From a virus: a stretch of DNA of 46,130 bases. Of this stretch, positions 6,065-41,490 are shown piece after piece. A program made the translations under genes and the position numbers. The DNA is taken from positions 1 through 46,130 of IMG/VR virus record IMGVR_UViG_3300037882_002792. The stretch is one strand, 5' to 3'. Each line of letters begins with the position of its first letter. The stretch's first letter is position 1. The notes below the pieces were generated by a model. The model did not search any database, had not been told where the DNA came from, and worked only from the letters and a program-made list of their open reading frames with translations.

Positions 6065-6288
6065 CCTCCTTCACCGCACATTACTCCCTGGCCGACAGCG
6101 GCCTAGTTGAGGTCGTCACCGTGGCCGGGATGTCCAAAGGCGTCAGCCTCCACTGTTCCGGCGCAATCGTTGTTGACGGTCAACCGCACGTCGCACTGTT
6201 GATGACCTACAGCGCTCTCAAGGACCTTGGGTTCACTGGGACTGAGGCTATTCACATAATGAACCTCTTCAACAGCAGCTTCACATGA
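6061..6288 (+). CDS. Hypothetical protein, 75 aa
   Basis: The 75-aa product starts in an ATGA overlap with the upstream gene and itself ends in an ATGA overlap with the transferase gene at 6285. It looks like a small alpha/beta protein (VEVVTVAGMSKGVSLH, then GQPHVALLMTYSALKDLGF). I recognise no family. The tight coupling to the DNA base modification gene hints at a role in, or co-expression with, that pathway. Confidence 0.55.
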   Translation: MTSFTAHYSLADSGLVEVVTVAGMSKGVSLHCSGAIVVDGQPHVALLMTYSALKDLGFTGTEAIHIMNLFNSSFT

Positions 6289-7259
6289 ACCGCAAACAAG
6301 ATTTCATCCGCTTCTGGGCCCAGACCGTCCTGATGGCCGACTGCGACACGCACATCTACCTCCCCCTCTGGTGCGCTCAACGATCTGGCCAGGACTCCAC
6401 GGAGGAGCTGGCCTGGCTCGCCTGGCTCACTGCGATCACCTACAATGGTCCCACGGCCTTGGCGGTGTTTGACCATTTCCCCCGGACTCCTGTTGACTCC
6501 ACGGAGCTGGGGAAGCTCAACGCCTGGAACAAGGCCAACAAGACTCTCCTCCCCCACGGAGCAGACCAGAAGTGGTTCCGTGGACGCCTTGCGGACGCAA
6601 CAGCCGGTCTCCTGGCAGTGACGGGCGTCAATATCGGTGCGTTCTTCCAACAGCGGAGCTTCAAGGAAGCCTGGGACGCAGTCACGGCGATAAACGGCGT
6701 GGGACGCTACACCGCGTGGCTGTTCCTCCAGGCCATCTCACGCATGCTCGATCTCAACTACCACCCCAACTCCCTTGACCTGGGCGACAGCTCCAGTGAC
6801 ATGAACCGCAGGGGAGTCTGCATGGCAATGGGACAGGACGAAAAAGCCGTGAAGGGCTACAAGTTTAGCCGTCAGGAGATTGTGGAGCTTGAGACGTTCG
6901 CCAGCGAGTGCTACTGGACCGTGAGCGGCAGGACCAAGGAGCCAATGCCCCTGGACTACTTCACAATGGAGACCGCATTCTGCACCTTTGCCAAGCTGTT
7001 TCGCCCCAAGAATGGTCGTTACCTGGGATACGTCTGCGACCGCGTGATGGGCCAGATCGCAGAGGCACGCGTCAACGGTCTCGCGCCCATCACCACAATG
7101 GACCTTTTCGTCAAGTCCTGTTTCCATCCAGCGTTCCACAACAGCAAAGGTCCTGACGCCTCTCAATACGCAATCTACGCCAACGAGGGTGTTTTCACCA
7201 CCAAGCGTGAGGTTGCTCATGAAGCCAAGTCCAAACTCCACCTCCTCTCCTACTTATGA
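6285..7259 (+). CDS. Predicted amino acid/polyamine:DNA transferase (alpha-glutamyl/putrescinyl-thymine pyrophosphorylase family, ADDT-like)
   Basis: This 324-aa protein has a DNA-glycosylase-like helical core. A helix-hairpin-helix reads INGVGRYTAWLFLQ at residues 136-149. The N-terminal part has the aromatic pattern of this family (EELAWLAWLTAITYNGPTA), followed by WNKANKTLLPHGADQKWF. In phages with hypermodified thymine, such enzymes displace pyrophosphate from a 5-pyrophosphoryloxymethyl-uracil in DNA and attach an amine or amino acid. The neighbour at 7256 is the DNA kinase that makes that activated base, and a second, divergent transferase is at 8421. Starts and stops overlap (ATGA) on both sides. 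The family call is from pattern recognition; the donor amine is unknown. Confidence 0.75.
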   Translation: MNRKQDFIRFWAQTVLMADCDTHIYLPLWCAQRSGQDSTEELAWLAWLTAITYNGPTALAVFDHFPRTPVDSTELGKLNAWNKANKTLLPHGADQKWFRGRLADATAGLLAVTGVNIGAFFQQRSFKEAWDAVTAINGVGRYTAWLFLQAISRMLDLNYHPNSLDLGDSSSDMNRRGVCMAMGQDEKAVKGYKFSRQEIVELETFASECYWTVSGRTKEPMPLDYFTMETAFCTFAKLFRPKNGRYLGYVCDRVMGQIAEARVNGLAPITTMDLFVKSCFHPAFHNSKGPDASQYAIYANEGVFTTKREVAHEAKSKLHLLSYL

Positions 7260-7822
7260 TCTTCAACATACGTGGCTCCAATGGAGCCGGCAAATCAACG
7301 CTGGTCCGCAACGTCATGGCCCAGTTCAAGACACGCGAGCCAGTGTTCACTCCTGGGCGCAAGCAGCCTCTCTACTACCGCCTGTGGGTTGGGGAGAGGA
7401 GCGGCAGGCCGGACCTCATCGTGCTGGGCCACTACGAGTCTGAGTGCGGAGGTTGTGACACGATTCATTCCATGGATGAGACTTACGATCTTGTCCACAA
7501 GGCGGTCGCTGAGGCGGAGCACGTCATGTTTGAGGGGATATTGATCAGCCTCACATTCGGCCGCAACCAGGAGCTTCACGACCGCTACGGCCACGACGGT
7601 TTTATGGCCATCACGCTGGACCGGACCGCACAGGAATGCGTTGACGCGGTGGACGTTAGGCGTGCCGCCAAGGGCAAGGACAAGGGACGCCCTGACGGCG
7701 TGATCTCAAAGCACAAGGCGGTCGTCAGGACGCTCCAGCGGATGGATGAATTGGGCATGAACACGCGGCTCCTGACGAGAGAAAAGGCGTTCACCGCTGT
7801 GATGGAGAGTATGTTCCTCTGA
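7256..7822 (+). CDS. Predicted 5-hydroxymethyl-dU DNA kinase (P-loop kinase)
   Basis: The 188-aa product is a P-loop nucleoside/nucleic-acid kinase with Walker A GSNGAGKST at residues 7-15. A central segment has the acidic/aromatic pattern of this family (GHYESECGGCDTIHSMDE), and the LTFGRNQEL and DVRRAAKGKDKGRPDG segments contribute the lid. In hypermodified-thymine phages this kinase phosphorylates 5-hydroxymethyl-dU within DNA so that a transferase can install an amine. It lies directly between the two candidate transferases and overlaps the first by ATGA. Gene context raises confidence; without it the protein could be called only a phage P-loop kinase. Confidence 0.8.
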   Translation: MIFNIRGSNGAGKSTLVRNVMAQFKTREPVFTPGRKQPLYYRLWVGERSGRPDLIVLGHYESECGGCDTIHSMDETYDLVHKAVAEAEHVMFEGILISLTFGRNQELHDRYGHDGFMAITLDRTAQECVDAVDVRRAAKGKDKGRPDGVISKHKAVVRTLQRMDELGMNTRLLTREKAFTAVMESMFL

Positions 7823-7826
7823 CAAT

Positions 7827-7902
7827 CTTGTGATTGGATGAACTTTGTTCTTGAAGCTCGCGAGGTTTTCCCTTTTGTTTCTTTCCGAACCACAGAACCA
7901 AA
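7827..7902 (+). promoter_or_regulatory. Recurrent CTCGCGAG leader element, copy B
   Basis: This copy starts four bases after the kinase stop. TTGAAG is at 7851-7856 and the palindrome CTCGCGAG at 7857-7864, then GTTTTCCCTTTTGTTTC and the ACCACAGAACC leader before the ATG at 7903. Bases 7827-7841 repeat the end of the helicase gene, including its TGA, although no helicase is here. This copy therefore looks derived from the copy-A locus. It matches copy C (41561-41618) at 57 of 58 positions. Confidence 0.65.
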
Positions 7903-8124
7903 ATGCCCGTCTCAATCTCCACTGAACAATACTACTTCTCCACCGGAAAACAGCCCAAAGGAACAGGTCCTTGGGCGTTCTGCCCCTCAGAGAAGTTTCA
8001 CAGCAAAAACTACCTGGACTTTATCATCTGGACTCCCAGCCTCACTTACTCCGCTGCCAAGAAGTTTGCCTTGGCTGAAGCCAAAAAGCGCGGCATCACG
8101 ACCTCCCTTCAAGTTTGCCCCTGA
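7903..8124 (+). CDS. Hypothetical protein, 73 aa
   Basis: The ATG follows leader copy B. The 73-aa product is aromatic-rich at the start (STEQYYFSTGKQPKGTGPWA) and has an amphipathic helix near the end (YSAAKKFALAEAKKRG). It resembles small phage proteins of unknown role. It lies between the DNA kinase and the second transferase, so it may be co-expressed with the modification genes. Confidence 0.6.
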   Translation: MPVSISTEQYYFSTGKQPKGTGPWAFCPSEKFHSKNYLDFIIWTPSLTYSAAKKFALAEAKKRGITTSLQVCP

Positions 8125-8127
8125 GCC

Positions 8128-8415
8128 ATGATCTTTCCAAATCTGAACATTGACGCCAAAGCGTCCCCATGTGTCATGAGCTGCGCAGTTGGTTTTGAGC
8201 AGGCTTGCGGCGTCCACGCTCTCGCTGAAGCTTACAAGCTCCAGGAGACCTTTTTGAGGTGGCTCCCAACAGTGGTTGGACCGCTCCCTGACGGGACGCA
8301 ATGCCTTGCGAGAGATTCAGGCATAGGGTTTATTTACATGAACTTGACCTCGCCTGACGATGGCGAAGCAACCTTGTGTCTTGTCACAGAAACTGGCCGC
8401 GTAACCCTTGCTTAA
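8128..8415 (+). CDS. Hypothetical protein, 95 aa
   Basis: The ATG is four bases after the preceding stop. The 95-aa product carries four cysteines in its first half (for example CVMSCAVGFEQACG) and a beta-rich C-terminal half ending TLCLVTETGRVTLA. I do not recognise the family. It lies immediately before the second predicted transferase. Confidence 0.55.
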   Translation: MIFPNLNIDAKASPCVMSCAVGFEQACGVHALAEAYKLQETFLRWLPTVVGPLPDGTQCLARDSGIGFIYMNLTSPDDGEATLCLVTETGRVTLA

Positions 8416-8420
8416 CTCAC

Positions 8421-9284
8421 ATGATTCCTGAAATACGTAAACTCAGCCCATTCAACCGTCTGGTGCGCTTCATCCGCCTCAGGGAGGATGCGCGCCACGT
8501 CAAAAGAATGGTTGGAGGTCCCGGACCTCACAGTGATGACCCCATCCTGGCCCACTCGCGCTTCTGCAACATCAACCGGGAACACGACGCGGTCACCCAG
8601 TGGGTGAAGGCCAACGTGCGGGACCTCCCGCTAAACCCAACCCAGATGGTCGTCAACGTCCTTGTGGCCCGCATATTCAATGAGCCTGAGACGCTGAGGC
8701 ACATTGTCCCCTTTTCGACTTCCAAGCACGTGATGGATCAACTGGCCAAGCTCAGAGCCAAAGGGCAACGCATCATGCGTGGTGCCTACATGATGCCCAC
8801 CCACGGTCCCGGATGGACTGGGAAGCTCGTTGAGGAATACCACCTGATGACGGTTGCGCAGGCTCGCGCTGTGGACTGGCGCGTGTATGAGCAGGCGTCC
8901 CTAGCCTCTGTGGCGGACCGGCTCCTGAGCCTCCACGGCGTGGGTCCTTTCGTGGCCAACCAGATCGTCACGGACCTCCGCTACACCAGGTGGTGGGACA
9001 AGGCAGAGGATTGGAAGTCATTTGTGCTCTGCGGTCCCGGCTCCAGGAGAGGTCTTGACCGTCTGGACGGCTGCTTCAAGGGAACAGGCTCAGGGTGCCG
9101 CAGGGAGAAGGTTTACACAGCCCGCATCCACGAGGTGCACCAGGAGCTGGCCCCGCTTGTCCCACCAGAGGTCGTGGCAGCTTACCGTGACCCCAACAAC
9201 GTCTCCAATACCTTCTGCGAGTGGGACAAATACGAGAGAGCGCTGTGGAGTGACAACCCCAGACTGCGGAGGAGCTACAAGTGA
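8421..9284 (+). CDS. Predicted alpha-glutamyl/putrescinyl-thymine pyrophosphorylase (second DNA amine transferase)
   Basis: The 287-aa product matches the other branch of the thymine-modification transferases. It shows DDPILAHSRFCNINREHD followed by a W-V, an HhH segment LHGVGPFVANQIVTDL from residue 171, CGPGSRRGLDR from C204, and FCEWDKYERA near the C-terminus. These are the signature blocks of the aGPT-PPlase group described in phages with 5-substituted thymines. The start is the ATG at 8421; upstream in-frame codons lie inside the previous gene. With the kinase at 7256 and the hydroxymethylase at 10246 it completes a plausible pathway. Two transferases could act on different amines or in succession, which the sequence does not decide. 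Confidence 0.8.
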   Translation: MIPEIRKLSPFNRLVRFIRLREDARHVKRMVGGPGPHSDDPILAHSRFCNINREHDAVTQWVKANVRDLPLNPTQMVVNVLVARIFNEPETLRHIVPFSTSKHVMDQLAKLRAKGQRIMRGAYMMPTHGPGWTGKLVEEYHLMTVAQARAVDWRVYEQASLASVADRLLSLHGVGPFVANQIVTDLRYTRWWDKAEDWKSFVLCGPGSRRGLDRLDGCFKGTGSGCRREKVYTARIHEVHQELAPLVPPEVVAAYRDPNNVSNTFCEWDKYERALWSDNPRLRRSYK

Positions 9285-9499
9285 GCCTTACACGCGGTCA
9301 AAGGCTCATCCTTTGGGTGCTTCAACGACACACGTTGTGCAACTGGGGGCACCTGCGTGACTGTCATTCGCTCCGCAACGTGTTGGAGGACTTTGACGCC
9401 AACCTTTACTTTCTGAGGGAGCAAGGTTTTGTGGGCCAAGAACATCACTTGTTTTTCGCAACGTCCGCAGCGCCTTTAATCCCCAAAGATGCATTTTAA
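9281..9499 (+). CDS. Small hypothetical protein, 72 aa, possible DNA-binding fold
   Basis: A GTG start overlaps the transferase stop codon (GTGA). The 72-aa product has helices (RGQRLILWVLQRH, then SLRNVLEDFDANLYFLREQG) and a short beta segment, which fits a small winged-helix protein but also other small folds. I recognise no family. The overlap with the upstream gene is the main evidence for translation. Confidence 0.5.
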   Translation: MSLTRGQRLILWVLQRHTLCNWGHLRDCHSLRNVLEDFDANLYFLREQGFVGQEHHLFFATSAAPLIPKDAF

Positions 9500-9511
9500 C
9501 TTTTCACTCCA

Positions 9512-9850
9512 ATGGCAAAATCAAGAACAATCAAAGTAAACCGGGACATAGACAAGCCAAACAGCTCCATCCCCAAGTCCTTCACTGTCAATGTGACGGT
9601 CCGGCCAGCTCCAGTTGAGAAAACATTCACAATGTCAACCCAGACGGCAGCCGCCATAGCGTTCACCCTCATACATTCGCTCCTGGACGGAACACCTGAC
9701 GCCTTGGGCAATCTTGAGCTGCGGGACGGAGAGCTGGGACGCGAGCACGACCGCCACCCAAGGGACTACTGGGAACGCGTGCGCAAAGCCACTCCTCAGG
9801 ACCTCGCCCACATTGCTTTGTTGACCAAGCTTGAAAAGCTATCCAAGTAA
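9512..9850 (+). CDS. Hypothetical protein, 112 aa
   Basis: The start is ATG, without a Shine-Dalgarno. The 112-aa product has a beta-rich N-terminal half (SFTVNVTVRPAPVEKTFTM) and a helical, charged C-terminal half with EHDRHPRDYWERVRKA. I recognise no family. It is followed by a short TAACTCTTTCC leader that recurs before the gene at 10106. Confidence 0.55.
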   Translation: MAKSRTIKVNRDIDKPNSSIPKSFTVNVTVRPAPVEKTFTMSTQTAAAIAFTLIHSLLDGTPDALGNLELRDGELGREHDRHPRDYWERVRKATPQDLAHIALLTKLEKLSK

Positions 9851-9862
9851 CTCTTTCCGCCC

Positions 9863-10093
9863 ATGAACAAACTAATCATCCTCCTCAGCCTGCTTGCAGC
9901 TTCCTGCGGCAAGCCCGTTCCACCGGCTCCAGTCGTTTCGCCTTCTGCCCCGCGCTTCAAGGTTGAGATTGAACGCTCAAGTGGAATAGCCACCGTGTAT
10001 CTTGTGACCGATACCACAACCGGCGCACAATTTATTAGCTTGCACAATGGCTCAAGCTCGTTGGCGCTTACTCACATCTATATCAAAAAGTAA
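9863..10093 (+). CDS. Small predicted lipoprotein, 76 aa
   Basis: The N-terminus MNKLIILLSLLAASC is a signal peptide with a lipobox LAASC, so the mature protein would begin at Cys15 and be lipid-anchored. A Pro-rich linker (GKPVPPAPVV) leads to a small beta-rich domain. Secreted phage lipoproteins can act in superinfection exclusion or as outer spanins. Its place among early genes rather than by the lysis genes favours exclusion, but this is inference. Leader TAACTCTTTCCGCCC directly precedes the ATG, and a near-identical leader precedes 10106. Confidence 0.65.
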   Translation: MNKLIILLSLLAASCGKPVPPAPVVSPSAPRFKVEIERSSGIATVYLVTDTTTGAQFISLHNGSSSLALTHIYIKK

Positions 10094-10105
10094 CTCTTTC
10101 CCGTC

Positions 10106-10240
10106 ATGAACAAAACAACCCAAAACCGTGCCACGCACAACATCACACGCGGTATGCGCAAGAAACAACAGCGCCGCCGTCGCCGCAACCACAAGATCGC
10201 AACTCAAAGCATCTACCAAGCCATCAACCGTAAATCCTGA
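10106..10240 (+). CDS. Very basic 44-aa peptide with arginine-rich motif
   Basis: A 44-aa frame begins with ATG after the TAACTCTTTCCCGTC leader, which nearly repeats the leader of 9863. The product is strongly basic, with GMRKKQQRRRRRNHK in its centre. Arginine-rich motifs of this kind bind RNA in phage antiterminators such as lambda N, or DNA in small accessory proteins. I recognise no family. The gene is six bases upstream of the hydroxymethylase gene. The leader repeat and clean start/stop support it. Confidence 0.6.
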   Translation: MNKTTQNRATHNITRGMRKKQQRRRRRNHKIATQSIYQAINRKS

Positions 10241-10245
10241 CCATC

Positions 10246-11289
10246 ATGGAACTAAGAGACAGAAACTACGCCCGCCTGGCCCCGCTCGTTTATGAGCGTC
10301 TCAGGGACCAGGGGATATACGGACAGAGCCGCAACGGCCCAGTCCTGCGCCTTCCTGGCGTCACTACCCTCATCGTGGACAGGCCTTGTGAGCGTGTGTG
10401 CTTCCTCCCTCAACGGGACGCCAACCCGTTCTTCCACCTCATGGAAGCTCTCGCGATGCTTACTGGCTTCAACTCCGCTCCCTTCCTGAGCTTCTTTGCT
10501 GGGAACATGATGAACTACAGTGACAACGGCAGGACCTACAACGCCTTTTATGGCGAGCGCCTGGTCAACGGCAAGTGGGGCAACCAGCTCCACGCCGTCA
10601 TTCGTCTCCTCTCCAAGGACCCAGACAGCCGGCAGGCCGTCGCCCAGATGTGGGACCCAGCGGACCTGGAGAAGATGACCAAGGACAAGGCGTGCAACAT
10701 GTCCCTGATCTTTGAGGTTGACCAACACGGCAGGCTTTGCATGACCTCCTTCAACCGCAGCAACGATGCGATCTGGGGCATTGTGACGGGAGCCAACGTG
10801 GTTCACCTCAGTATGTTCCAGGAATACGTCGCCTGCGCGCTGGGACGCGAGATTGGCTCTTGGACCCACGTCAGCAACAACCTCCACATCTATACGGAGC
10901 AACCCAAGTGGCAGGACCTCAAGGACCTCTCAATTGCGGACTCCGTGAAGCACCACGGCTACCCGTTTATCACTTGCACACCGCTGTTTGCCAACGTTGA
11001 CAACCACACGAGCCGCGCCACATTCGACTTAGTGCTATCAGACTTCATCCACCGCGCTTCTCAGGCCGTTGAGTGCGGGACTTACATGTTGTTTGACGGC
11101 ATCCTGGCGGAGCGCATCCCGTTTATCCACAAGACTGCCTACCCGGTGTTCATGGCCTGGCACGAGCGCAAGAAAAAGACCGGAAACGTCAACTATTGGC
11201 TGGACCGGATTGAGAGCGCTGACTGGCACGTGGCCTGCAAGGAGTGGGTTGAACGTCGCAACAAATCATCCGATGAAAACCCCATTTGA
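10246..11289 (+). CDS. Thymidylate-synthase-like dUMP/dCMP hydroxymethylase
   Basis: The 347-aa product belongs to the thymidylate synthase superfamily. The catalytic Cys is C150 in KACNMSLIF, where an Asn follows instead of the His of thymidylate synthases, as in phage hydroxymethylases. The nucleotide-binding part follows: NRSNDAIWGI, N184 in TGANVV, then HLSMFQEYVACALG and WTHVSNNLHIYTEQP. An Asn at the position of N184 is the residue linked to uridine rather than cytidine substrates in this family, by eye alignment. The expected product is 5-hydroxymethyl-dUMP, the precursor of hydroxymethyl-dU in DNA, which the kinase and transferases would then elaborate. The HD gene overlaps its 3' end. 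Confidence 0.88.
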   Translation: MELRDRNYARLAPLVYERLRDQGIYGQSRNGPVLRLPGVTTLIVDRPCERVCFLPQRDANPFFHLMEALAMLTGFNSAPFLSFFAGNMMNYSDNGRTYNAFYGERLVNGKWGNQLHAVIRLLSKDPDSRQAVAQMWDPADLEKMTKDKACNMSLIFEVDQHGRLCMTSFNRSNDAIWGIVTGANVVHLSMFQEYVACALGREIGSWTHVSNNLHIYTEQPKWQDLKDLSIADSVKHHGYPFITCTPLFANVDNHTSRATFDLVLSDFIHRASQAVECGTYMLFDGILAERIPFIHKTAYPVFMAWHERKKKTGNVNYWLDRIESADWHVACKEWVERRNKSSDENPI

Positions 11290-11797
11290 ACGAGCCCTTG
11301 CCGCCCACCAGGCCGGCAGCGTCCTGCGCTACCACGCAGCCCCAACGGTCCGGCCGCAAACAGTCGGGCATCACAGCTTTGGCGTAGCCGTCATCGTGAT
11401 CTACCTCACGAGCGGAGATGCTTCTGCCAACCTCCTCAAGGCAGCGGTCCTGCACGACACGGCGGAGCTGTTCACTGGAGACATCCCGTTCACCGTGAAG
11501 CGCGACAACGCAGACATCAAAACAACCTTTGACGAGCTTGAGAACCGGGCTTACGCAGAGAGGCTGTTGGAGATGCCTGAGCTCACCAAGGAGGAGCGCT
11601 GCGTGCTGAAGCTCGCTGACACACTGGAGGGATACCTGTGGTGCGTCAAACATGAGTCCTCTGGTCCCGTGAGGAGTCGCTGGAAGAACGCACTGACAAA
11701 CGCCCTTGTGAAGTTTGCTGACCTCGTTTCGCCCTCCGTCTTCTCAAACGCAAAGGCTTTTCTCACTCAACTCCATCCAAGAAACTTACACCCGTGA
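11273..11797 (+). CDS. HD-domain 5'-deoxynucleotidase (YfbR-like)
   Basis: The 174-aa product is an HD-superfamily phosphohydrolase. HH at residues 33-34, H61-D62 in VLHDTAE and GDIPFTVKR correspond to the metal-binding and substrate parts of YfbR-type 5'-deoxynucleotidases. A later conserved D falls in LKLADTLEG. Such enzymes release phosphate from dNMPs. Next to a hydroxymethylase, the likely purpose is to remove dTMP or other canonical nucleotides so that the modified one is used. The ATG at 11273 overlaps the end of the hydroxymethylase gene by 17 bp. The substrate is inferred. Confidence 0.8.
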   Translation: MKTPFERALAAHQAGSVLRYHAAPTVRPQTVGHHSFGVAVIVIYLTSGDASANLLKAAVLHDTAELFTGDIPFTVKRDNADIKTTFDELENRAYAERLLEMPELTKEERCVLKLADTLEGYLWCVKHESSGPVRSRWKNALTNALVKFADLVSPSVFSNAKAFLTQLHPRNLHP

Positions 11798-12750
11798 AAA
11801 TATTCACATTAAAAACCTTAGCCGCTGAGCTGTGCGCATTGCTGTCCAGAGACGGCTCATTCACACACTCCAACAAAATGGAGGATGTCTTGCACGACGT
11901 GTTCGGCGGCATCAAGACCATCGTTGACGGAGAGGTTGAGGGAGGGAGCGTTGAAGTCAGCGCGCCTTGGCGGTGGGAGCGATGGGCCGTCAACCTCTAT
12001 GGCAAAGGCATTGAAATGCTGGACTCAGACGGGAAAATGGCAGCTATACAGCGAGACGTTGAACAGCTGCGATCTGCCGTTGGAGAAGGGCCAACCCCAG
12101 AGTTTCCCGTGTTCCGCTTCTCCTACACAGCTCAGGACAACGAGATTTGGTTCCATGTGAAGATGGCGGAGGACGGCAGCGGGTGCAGCTACAACCTGGG
12201 GAAACACTCCAACCACATTGCCGGCAGGACCGCCATGAAGTTGGTTGAGCTTTTCCCCAAGGAGACCTCCCCCAAGCCCGTCCCGCCCCAATCCATCGGC
12301 AAGCTCACCGTCTCCGTTGAGACCACAGAAAAGCCGGCATTTTGGTTCAGCAAAGGCACAGGTGGGATTGTGTATCTGTGCTCTCGCACCGCGTGCGGCA
12401 AAGACACAAGAACATCGCTTGGGAATGGTGCTGAACAAATAAGCACTTTGCCAAACTTGTTCTCCGTTGGTGCTCCCGTGTTGCTTGAACCTGCCTCCGT
12501 TGAGACAACATCACTTGGTCTGGGGAAACAGGTTGGTGGTGACCACTACCAGATGCCGATTCAGCACTTTGAGTTTGTGGCTGCCAACAACATTCCTTAC
12601 GCAGAGGCTACAGCCATGAAGTATCTCTGCCGCCACCGCAAGAAGAACAAGCACCAGGACCTGGACAAGGCCATCCACTACATCCTCATGTTGCGGGCTC
12701 AGGCCTACCCGGACGCACCGCCCTGGGTCAACCCAATGGAGGCGACATGA
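11794..12750 (+). CDS. DUF3310 protein with long unknown N-terminal region
   Basis: The 318-aa product has a C-terminal DUF3310 domain (about residues 245-305): VGGDHYQMPIQHFEFV, then YAEATAMKYLCRHRKKN and DLDKAIHYILML. Usual DUF3310 proteins are much shorter. Here about 240 residues of unrecognised sequence precede the domain, including an acidic helical start and a central beta-rich part. The start is GTG at 11794, overlapping the HD gene stop (GTGA). DUF3310 is found near phage nucleotide metabolism genes and is sometimes called nucleotide kinase, but the activity is uncertain. Confidence 0.75.
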   Translation: MKIFTLKTLAAELCALLSRDGSFTHSNKMEDVLHDVFGGIKTIVDGEVEGGSVEVSAPWRWERWAVNLYGKGIEMLDSDGKMAAIQRDVEQLRSAVGEGPTPEFPVFRFSYTAQDNEIWFHVKMAEDGSGCSYNLGKHSNHIAGRTAMKLVELFPKETSPKPVPPQSIGKLTVSVETTEKPAFWFSKGTGGIVYLCSRTACGKDTRTSLGNGAEQISTLPNLFSVGAPVLLEPASVETTSLGLGKQVGGDHYQMPIQHFEFVAANNIPYAEATAMKYLCRHRKKNKHQDLDKAIHYILMLRAQAYPDAPPWVNPMEAT

Positions 12751-40495: not shown

Positions 40496-40651
40496 ATGAA
40501 ACTCCGTCTCCTTTCCGCCTTCATCTCTGGCTCCGCTGCCGCCGCAGCGCTCATCATAGCAGCCTTTGTTTCCCCTCCCTGGGTTGCGTCCTGTGGCTTT
40601 TTCGTCCTCACCGCCGTTGCGGCCGCGTCTGCCGCCTTTGCCATCCGATGA
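40496..40651 (+). CDS. Small membrane protein, 51 aa, two membrane spans
   Basis: The ATG at 40496 opens a 51-aa frame. MKLRLLSAFISGSAAAAALI begins the first hydrophobic span, a turn SPPWVASC follows, and GFFVLTAVAAASAAFAI forms the second. The stop overlaps the ATG of the next gene (ATGA at 40648-40651). Small hairpin membrane proteins in phages can be holins or exclusion proteins. The early position argues against holin. Confidence 0.6.
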   Translation: MKLRLLSAFISGSAAAAALIIAAFVSPPWVASCGFFVLTAVAAASAAFAIR

Positions 40652-41490
40652 ACCTCTCATCCCAGATCGCAGACTGGCTGACAGCCGGTCCGCTCTCCTT
40701 CACCTCCCTCAAGGTCCTTTGCGTGAACAACCCAAAAGACAACCAAGCTCTCCTCCCCACCCTCAACGCCATGATCAGCTCTGGCCGCATTCGCCTTTCC
40801 AACCACAAGTATTTCCTTCCCATGAAAAACAACCAAGTCCTCAAGTCCGGTAGCATCGTCCAGGTGCTCCACAAAGCCAACGGTAAAGACCGTTTCTACC
40901 TCAAAGAATGTGAGGTAACCATCAACCCCAAGACCTCCCTCGTTGTCGTCAAGGCCACCGGCAAGACCGCCTGCGGCACCCGTGAAGCGGGTGTTGAAGC
41001 GGCTGCCCTCCCCAAGATCGTTGCCGTTTACCTGTCCAAGGAGGACAAGGAGACCGGCGACACCGCCAAGGCCATCAACGTGGCTGCTGAAAATGTGGCC
41101 CTTGAAGGTGGCGCTGAGCCCACCCAGCCCACCGTCCCGGAAAAGCCTGCCAAGGTTGCCCGTGACCCCAGCGAGCCCAAGGTCAAGTCCTACAAGCCGC
41201 TCAACCCGGTGGCGGAGGAACTGTTGAAGTCCATCAAGGCCAAGCTGGCGCGCAAGCCTGGCAAGACCGCTCCGCTGAACACCATCGTGGAGCACGTTGG
41301 CCTCAGCGAACACTGCCACCTCGTCAACCTCGCCAGCCGTGGCCACATCATCCTCACCGGTGAGAAGAAGGACCGCGTGGTGACCCTGCCGGAGACCCAG
41401 CCTGAAATCCGCATCCGTGGGGAAGCCAAACCCAAAGCTCCCAAGGAAGCTCCTGCCCCCAAGTCCGGCACCGGCTCTGACCTCCTCTGA
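40648..41490 (+). CDS. Hypothetical DNA-associated protein, 280 aa, with helix-turn-helix-like ends
   Basis: The product has an N-terminal wHTH-like region (SSQIADWLTAGPLSFTSLKV, LNAMISSGRIRL), a beta-rich centre, an acidic linker, and a second basic helical region (VAEELLKSIKAKLARKPGKT) with a wing-like HIILTGEKKDRVVTL. The tail is Lys/Pro/Ala-rich and ends GTGSDLL. I recognise no family. The long well-used frame and strong hairpin after it suggest a sizeable expressed early protein, possibly DNA-binding. A start at 40823 (MKNNQVLKSG) is possible. Confidence 0.6.
   Translation: MNLSSQIADWLTAGPLSFTSLKVLCVNNPKDNQALLPTLNAMISSGRIRLSNHKYFLPMKNNQVLKSGSIVQVLHKANGKDRFYLKECEVTINPKTSLVVVKATGKTACGTREAGVEAAALPKIVAVYLSKEDKETGDTAKAINVAAENVALEGGAEPTQPTVPEKPAKVARDPSEPKVKSYKPLNPVAEELLKSIKAKLARKPGKTAPLNTIVEHVGLSEHCHLVNLASRGHIILTGEKKDRVVTLPETQPEIRIRGEAKPKAPKEAPAPKSGTGSDLL

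Follow-up and report, generated by a model that had tools for sequence, protein, structure and literature searches.

Predicted PaMx11/M6-type hypermodification of thymidine in virus record IMGVR_UViG_3300037882_002792, with a divergent transferase and no known tailoring genes

How might a phage decorate its DNA when it carries the core genes for thymine hypermodification and none of the known genes that tailor the added group? This question is raised by virus record IMGVR_UViG_3300037882_002792, which was analysed over its entire length of 46,130 bases (here, the window). Five of its genes lie within 5.5 kb on the + strand, with open reading frames (ORFs) that begin at the expected starts and overlap or are closely spaced. 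The original prediction had read these genes, named here by their start positions, as a pathway based on 5-hydroxymethyl-deoxyuridine (5-hmdU). All five ORFs are present; 6285, 8421, 10246 and 11273 match Pfam families above cut-off, and the kinase is recognized by its identity to phage proteins. The pathway assignment is borne out by the presence of a hydroxymethylase, a DNA kinase, a transferase with the helix-hairpin-helix (HhH) fold and an HD phosphohydrolase. We therefore regard it as quite likely that the window encodes a PaMx11/M6-type route to hypermodified thymidine that is free of known tailoring genes and whose adduct is probably supplied by the host. The five genes are as follows.

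6285 to 7259, + strand: ADDT (amino acid:DNA transferase)-family transferase, 324 amino acids, HhH glycosylase-like fold (PF18724, PHROG 3271, fold comparison)
7256 to 7822, + strand: P-loop 5-hmdU DNA kinase, 188 amino acids, Walker A motif GSNGAGKST (identity to PaMx11 gp49 and Epa5, PHROG 800)
8421 to 9284, + strand: HMUDK_hel (aGPT-PPlase1), 287 amino acids, HhH glycosylase-like fold, linked to thymidylate synthase (PF18723, AlphaFold2 model)
10246 to 11289, + strand: predicted dUMP hydroxymethylase of the thymidylate synthase (TS) fold, 347 amino acids, with C150 and N184 (PF00303, PHROG 5131)
11273 to 11797, + strand: HD phosphohydrolase of the YfbR 5′-deoxynucleotidase family (PF12917, PHROG 7076, PDB YfbR)

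The cluster is not a product of chance, since the same order, ADDT-(tailoring genes)-kinase-HMUDK_hel-TS-HD-DUF3310, is shared by PaMx11, M6 and numerous IMG/VR contigs. PaMx11 and M6 DNA carry amino-acid-derived thymines. In PaMx11 (Abidjanvirus), the order is gp46 ADDT, gp47 flavin adenine dinucleotide (FAD) enzyme, gp48 acetyltransferase, gp49 kinase, gp50 HMUDK_hel, gp51 TS and gp52 HD. By tblastn, it shares with the window the ADDT, kinase (40.7% identity), HMUDK_hel (30%), TS (34%), HD and DUF3310 genes (HD, 37%) in the same order. It differs in having gp47 and gp48 between ADDT and kinase, and its ADDT belongs to the glycine branch of the family and retains a conserved Lys. M6 runs gp51 ADDT, gp52 pyridoxal phosphate (PLP) enzyme, gp53 radical S-adenosylmethionine (SAM)-like enzyme, gp54 kinase, gp55 HMUDK_hel, gp58 TS and gp59 HD. 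M6 and YuA thus have the window's core order (TS 36%, HMUDK_hel 29%, HD 38%); in contrast to the window, M6 has PLP and radical-SAM genes that separate ADDT from kinase, and its ADDT belongs to the glycine branch. Rhodoferax phage P26218, which is cultured and completely sequenced, also runs ADDT-kinase-TS-HD (gp14-gp18) with no tailoring genes and has a polymerase 35% identical to that of the window, but it has no HMUDK_hel, a glycine-branch ADDT and a podovirus-like genome of 36 kb. The closest relative having both kinase and ADDT is the IMG/VR sister contig L008, whose core is 43-58% identical overall (polymerase 58%, TS 53%, kinase 44%, HMUDK_hel 45%). Its ADDT, however, is just 24% identical and is flanked by genes for myo-inositol-1-phosphate synthase (MIPS) and a dual-specificity phosphatase.

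The TS-like protein at 10246 matches PF00303 (7.9e-18) and PHROG 5131 (4.6e-80). In the PDB it is closest to a CMP 5-hydroxymethylase that acts in mildiomycin synthesis (2.9e-27), and it shares 36% identity with YuA gp17/M6-type enzymes. The catalytic C150 and N184 are invariant across seven cluster homologues. N184 aligns with the Asp of CMP hydroxymethylase, which fits a uracil substrate. Because 10246 is orthologous to the M6/YuA-type enzymes, we predict that it yields 5-hydroxymethyl-dUMP, adding CH2OH and not CH3. The 5-hmdU-derived bases of M6 and ViI DNA are made through 5-hmdU DNA kinase, and in M6-type phages all T is reportedly first replaced by 5-hmdU, which is then modified via this kinase (PMC6449724). 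The HD protein at 11273 matches the YfbR-like family PF12917 (3.6e-15), YfbR in the PDB (4e-6) and PHROG 7076, ‘dATP triphosphohydrolase’ (6.8e-19); it probably clears dTMP/dTTP.

The kinase at 7256 scores 16.9 bits against the HMUDK model (PF18748), below the cut-off of 27. PaMx11 gp49 (18.1) and the P26218 kinase (24.3) likewise fall under this cut-off, which indicates that the model is narrow. A protein search of phage records found 40-41% identity over 97-98% of its length to P-loop genes that hold the corresponding position in PaMx11 (gp49) and Epa5. It is 28% identical to M6 gp54 and matches PHROG 800 (1e-17). RefSeq and PHROG 800 label 5-hmdU kinases, including PaMx11 gp49, M6 gp54 and phiW-14 gp36, as ‘terminase small subunit’, a misannotation that is propagating.

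The transferase at 6285 matches the ADDT model PF18724 with 31.1 bits (cut-off 26.2) and PHROG 3271 (4e-28). Its AlphaFold2 model, built from a 21-sequence alignment of the window and viral-contig proteins, has a mean pLDDT of 89.8. The best PDB match of the model is the PaMx11 glycinyltransferase gp46/PUGT (8z2n; E 2.8e-4, probability 1.00, TM 0.59/0.65), and three gp46/PUGT chains are the top three structural matches (E 2.8e-4 to 7.4e-4). The next matches, 3-methyladenine and 8-oxoguanine DNA glycosylases, are below significance. When compared with viral models, the 6285 model superposes with TM 0.86 on that of the ADDT from Mycobacterium phage Fortunato. Searching PDB sequences by phmmer with 6285 and 8421 gave nothing useful; the ties of both proteins to 8z2m/8z2n are the fold comparison and the PaMx11 orthologue. 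With 6285 as the only query, a scan of viral contigs gave no match, and a broad alignment of ADDTs diverged too much to be used in a pattern search; relatives were reached via TS, kinase, MIPS and glutamine amidotransferase (GATase).

A maximum-likelihood tree of 43 ADDTs has two main branches, one with M6, PaMx11, P26218 and phiW-14 and the other with the window, ViI-like, Cr30, Magpie and Montesquieu types. The window ADDT therefore falls outside the glycine branch. Its nearest relatives are those of L026 and L028 (support 97/95); with larger sampling, its placement is not settled inside a group that also holds GATase-linked and Cr30-like ADDTs. The L026, L132 and L028 ADDTs (those of L026 and L132 are the same) are 57-60% identical among themselves and 29-33% identical to that of the window. 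These loci have the same core, but unlike the window, a GATase-like gene overlaps the ADDT start. Alignment of 94 ADDTs shows G140 and C233 to be essentially invariant, and 90 of the sequences have Lys or Arg three residues after C233. The window keeps the HhH motif as well as E229 and C233 of the E-x3-C-x2-[KR] motif, and K/R236 is replaced by Ala. L026 also has Ala at position 236, L028 has Ser and L131 has Phe. Based on the GATase-linked nearest relatives and the loss of this Lys/Arg, we consider the window enzyme to be distinct from the characterized glycine enzyme, and the nucleophile is probably not that of the glycine branch.

The original prediction named 8421 as a second HhH transferase. 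The HhH fold held for both proteins, strongly for 6285 and weakly for 8421, whereas current family naming does not support a transferase role for 8421. The protein matches HMUDK_hel (PF18723) with 135 bits (cut-off 25; 3.8e-39), and with its model (pLDDT 92.2) the top Foldseek matches are HhH DNA glycosylases and PUGT, at a weak E of 0.05-0.1. HMUDK_hel is linked to TS even where a kinase was not found: among 54 viral-contig loci that have HMUDK_hel and TS and whose upstream sequence extends for at least 4 kb, neither kinase nor ADDT is present in 30. A kinase search in eight whole records with HMUDK_hel-TS and no local kinase found none, and the positive control was detected. The complete P26218 genome shows the converse, with ADDT, kinase, TS and HD present and HMUDK_hel absent, and in pelagiphages TS is paired with aG/PT-PPlase1 near a 5′-deoxynucleotidase and a putative glucosyltransferase (PMC9599517). 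From these observations, we infer that HMUDK_hel acts on 5-hmdU DNA more generally than as a pure kinase subunit. In relatives that retain HMUDK_hel-TS-HD, TAGT or GT1 glycosyltransferases replace kinase and ADDT (L029:8359-9156; L031:6273-9093; L045:7812-9059; L044:7687-9109), which suggests glycosylated 5-hmdU in these phages and a kinase-independent role for HMUDK_hel. The L031 cassette additionally carries a radical SAM/SPASM gene. The protein at 8421 has an HhH-like LHGVGPF motif, and 15 residues, including D56, D185, D197, C266, E267 and K270, are invariant in 46 homologues; judged by this conservation pattern, they look catalytic rather than merely DNA-binding.

Tailoring families (FAD, PLP, radical-SAM and GNAT) gave no match in the window, including a scan of 38 further ORFs, and neither MIPS nor GATase was found there. 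Weak matches to HIT (0.005) and Methyltransf_28 (0.005) were rejected as not real. The kinase start overlaps the ADDT stop by 4 nucleotides, so that the slot that holds tailoring genes elsewhere is empty. The earlier statement that no radical-SAM or PLP enzyme was recognised was thus upheld, and since radical-SAM, PLP, FAD-lyase and acetyltransferase tailoring genes are all absent from the window, direct attachment is the simplest reading. With no known tailoring or nucleophile-making enzyme encoded, the adduct is probably a small molecule of the host that is left as attached.

What the analysis shows directly is the identity of the genes, their order, the folds and the absence of known tailoring families from this record; each reaction, and the product, we infer from these. 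The TS-like enzyme would convert dUMP to 5-hydroxymethyl-dUMP, and the HD enzyme would deplete dTMP/dTTP such that 5-hmdU, incorporated by the phage polymerase, enters DNA instead of T. After replication, 7256 would phosphorylate a subset of the 5-hmdU in DNA, and HMUDK_hel would bind or prepare the 5-hmdU DNA. The ADDT would then flip the base, and we predict that it displaces the phosphate of 5-phosphomethyl-dU with a nucleophile. Pyrophosphate, proposed originally as the general leaving group, is not supported as such, since PaMx11-type enzymes release phosphate: the substrate of the PaMx11 enzyme is 5-phosphomethyl-dU, as given by the PDB title, and a pyrophosphoryl intermediate is documented for phiW-14 (PMC5977210). 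The purpose would be escape from restriction, as work with M6, ViI and phiW-14 DNA indicates (PMC6449724).

Several points weigh against this pathway. Sequence alone cannot separate known hydroxymethylases from plain TS with certainty, as stated for phiW-14 (PMC5977210). The match of 6285 to PF18724 is barely above the cut-off, its protein sits on a long branch (end length 1.4-1.8), and Ala at a near-invariant basic position possibly means impaired or changed ADDT activity. The record also encodes terminase, portal, head, tail, primase-helicase and exonuclease besides the polymerase, and complete siphophages with related capsids have 40-50 kb; it is therefore probably nearly complete. Nevertheless, no terminal repeat was found in it, and a small number of genes could sit outside it, a tailoring gene among them. 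One further protein had no PHROG, Pfam or PDB sequence match.

40648 to 41490: protein of 280 amino acids

Of the non-structural proteins that have no assignment, it is the only one of some size and could thus be an unrecognized tailoring enzyme.

Which host molecule might be attached? Putrescine and glutamate lack specific support, and a different metabolite of the host, such as serine or ammonia, is no less likely than either. One tentative possibility is O-linked serine (or a similar hydroxy-amino acid) left undecarboxylated, as presumed for ViI-type enzymes. The ViI side chain derives from serine. The window ADDT shares its branch with Cygsa01 and with the 160 Salmonella ViI-like phages that tblastn detected; such phages carry 5-(2-aminoethoxy)methyl-dU (PMC11721090), and the window has no PLP decarboxylase. 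However, ViI-type ADDTs are distant (22-24% identity) and keep the Lys that the window has lost, and Salmonella ViI-type phages (Ackermannviridae), although they share 5-hmdU-derived modified T, have another genome organization and no close kinship with the window.

Ammonia from the cell, giving 5-aminomethyl-dU in one step, is on balance unlikely; in this reading, the nearest ADDT branch would work with a class II glutamine amidotransferase. The gene that overlaps the ADDT start (L132:2304-3020, L028:6859-7572) encodes 237-238 amino acids with the look of an N-terminal nucleophile (Ntn) glutamine amidotransferase. GATase_6 is above cut-off in the homologues of L226 and L227, where the ADDTs beside GATase share the signature FxMETxxCxFxKLFR..GRYLGY with the window. 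Conversely, the window has no GATase, the assignments in L028 and L132 score under the Pfam cut-off, and the GATase of L215-L228, which lies at a distance of 3 kb from the ADDT, adjoins a Tet_JBP gene and a possible amidoligase, and may serve another step. GATase lies near position 6001 in L215-L228, and L220 and L226 pair it with Tet_JBP and a possible amidoligase.

Direct attachment to give putrescinyl- or glutamyl-thymine, the specific guess of the original prediction, is improbable. It fits the lack of a tailoring gene and the fact that Delftia phage phiW-14, which has putrescinylthymine, also encodes an ADDT, a P-loop kinase and HMUDK_hel. The phiW-14 ADDT, however, is in the other main branch, the genes of this phage are scattered over 157 kb with a pyrophosphoryl intermediate in the pathway, and no window gene points to polyamine or glutamate metabolism. 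Partial decay, with an inactive ADDT and DNA holding 5-hmdU or 5-phosphomethyl-dU alone, would agree with the long branch and the lost basic residue but is very improbable given an intact frame of 324 codons overlapping the kinase gene, a well-formed model, the retention of G140, C233 and the HhH motif, and two further relatives that lack this Lys yet are intact.

We retain direct attachment of a host metabolite as the preferred reading; the pathway in the window is of a known type, but it is free of tailoring genes and its transferase is divergent. The choice of nucleophile by ADDT and any later processing set the chemistry of phage DNA decoration, and in the window a conserved 5-hmdU core is combined with an ADDT whose branch has no assigned nucleophile. 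Across relatives, the core (polymerase, HMUDK_hel, TS and HD) stays while the cassette swaps among glycosyltransferases, GATase-linked ADDTs and inositol-phosphate synthase, and this leads to specific, testable predictions of new modified bases.

Three further rows of the feature list lie within or near the cluster.

801 to 2867, + strand: family A DNA polymerase, part of the wider conserved block (PF00476, 1.4e-13)
7903 to 8415, + strand: two small ORFs of 73 and 95 amino acids between the kinase and HMUDK_hel (ORF list)
11794 to 12750, + strand: DUF3310-containing protein, a conserved cluster neighbour (PF11753, 5e-6)

The polymerase presumably copies with 5-hmdUTP. The 95-amino-acid ORF has no Pfam match, and no Pfam family could be attributed to the 73-amino-acid ORF in the pooled scan. 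DUF3310 homologues come after HD in PaMx11, M6 and the IMG/VR relatives. A megablast search of the cluster against phage records gave zero matches, therefore it has no near relative in culture.

We judge the MIPS-ADDT module of relatives to be worth more than the window cluster itself. In L008, MIPS precedes ADDT and the dual-specificity phosphatase follows it (L008:5612-8166). The 80 viral-contig loci closest to the L008 MIPS were fetched irrespective of ADDT; 43 have an ADDT within 5 kb of MIPS, and the order MIPS-ADDT-phosphatase-kinase is found in 26. Our literature search found no description of such a phage module, which is not proof that none exists. The simplest reading is that the DNA of these phages contains inositol-decorated thymine. 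With this branch in mind, we propose, tentatively, that the ADDTs of the window and its GATase-linked relatives were retooled for a non-amino-acid nucleophile, most likely ammonia, giving aminomethyl-uracil DNA in one step, and that ADDT may serve as an all-purpose enzyme for DNA alkylation, with the cassette next to it determining the nucleophile. MIPS lies near position 8001 in most of L134-L170. In Caulobacter phage Cr30 (L017:11884-15331), ADDT, a weakly TAGT-like gene and MIPS are consecutive, and on one contig ADDT and the phosphatase are fused in a single frame (L136:8920-10797).

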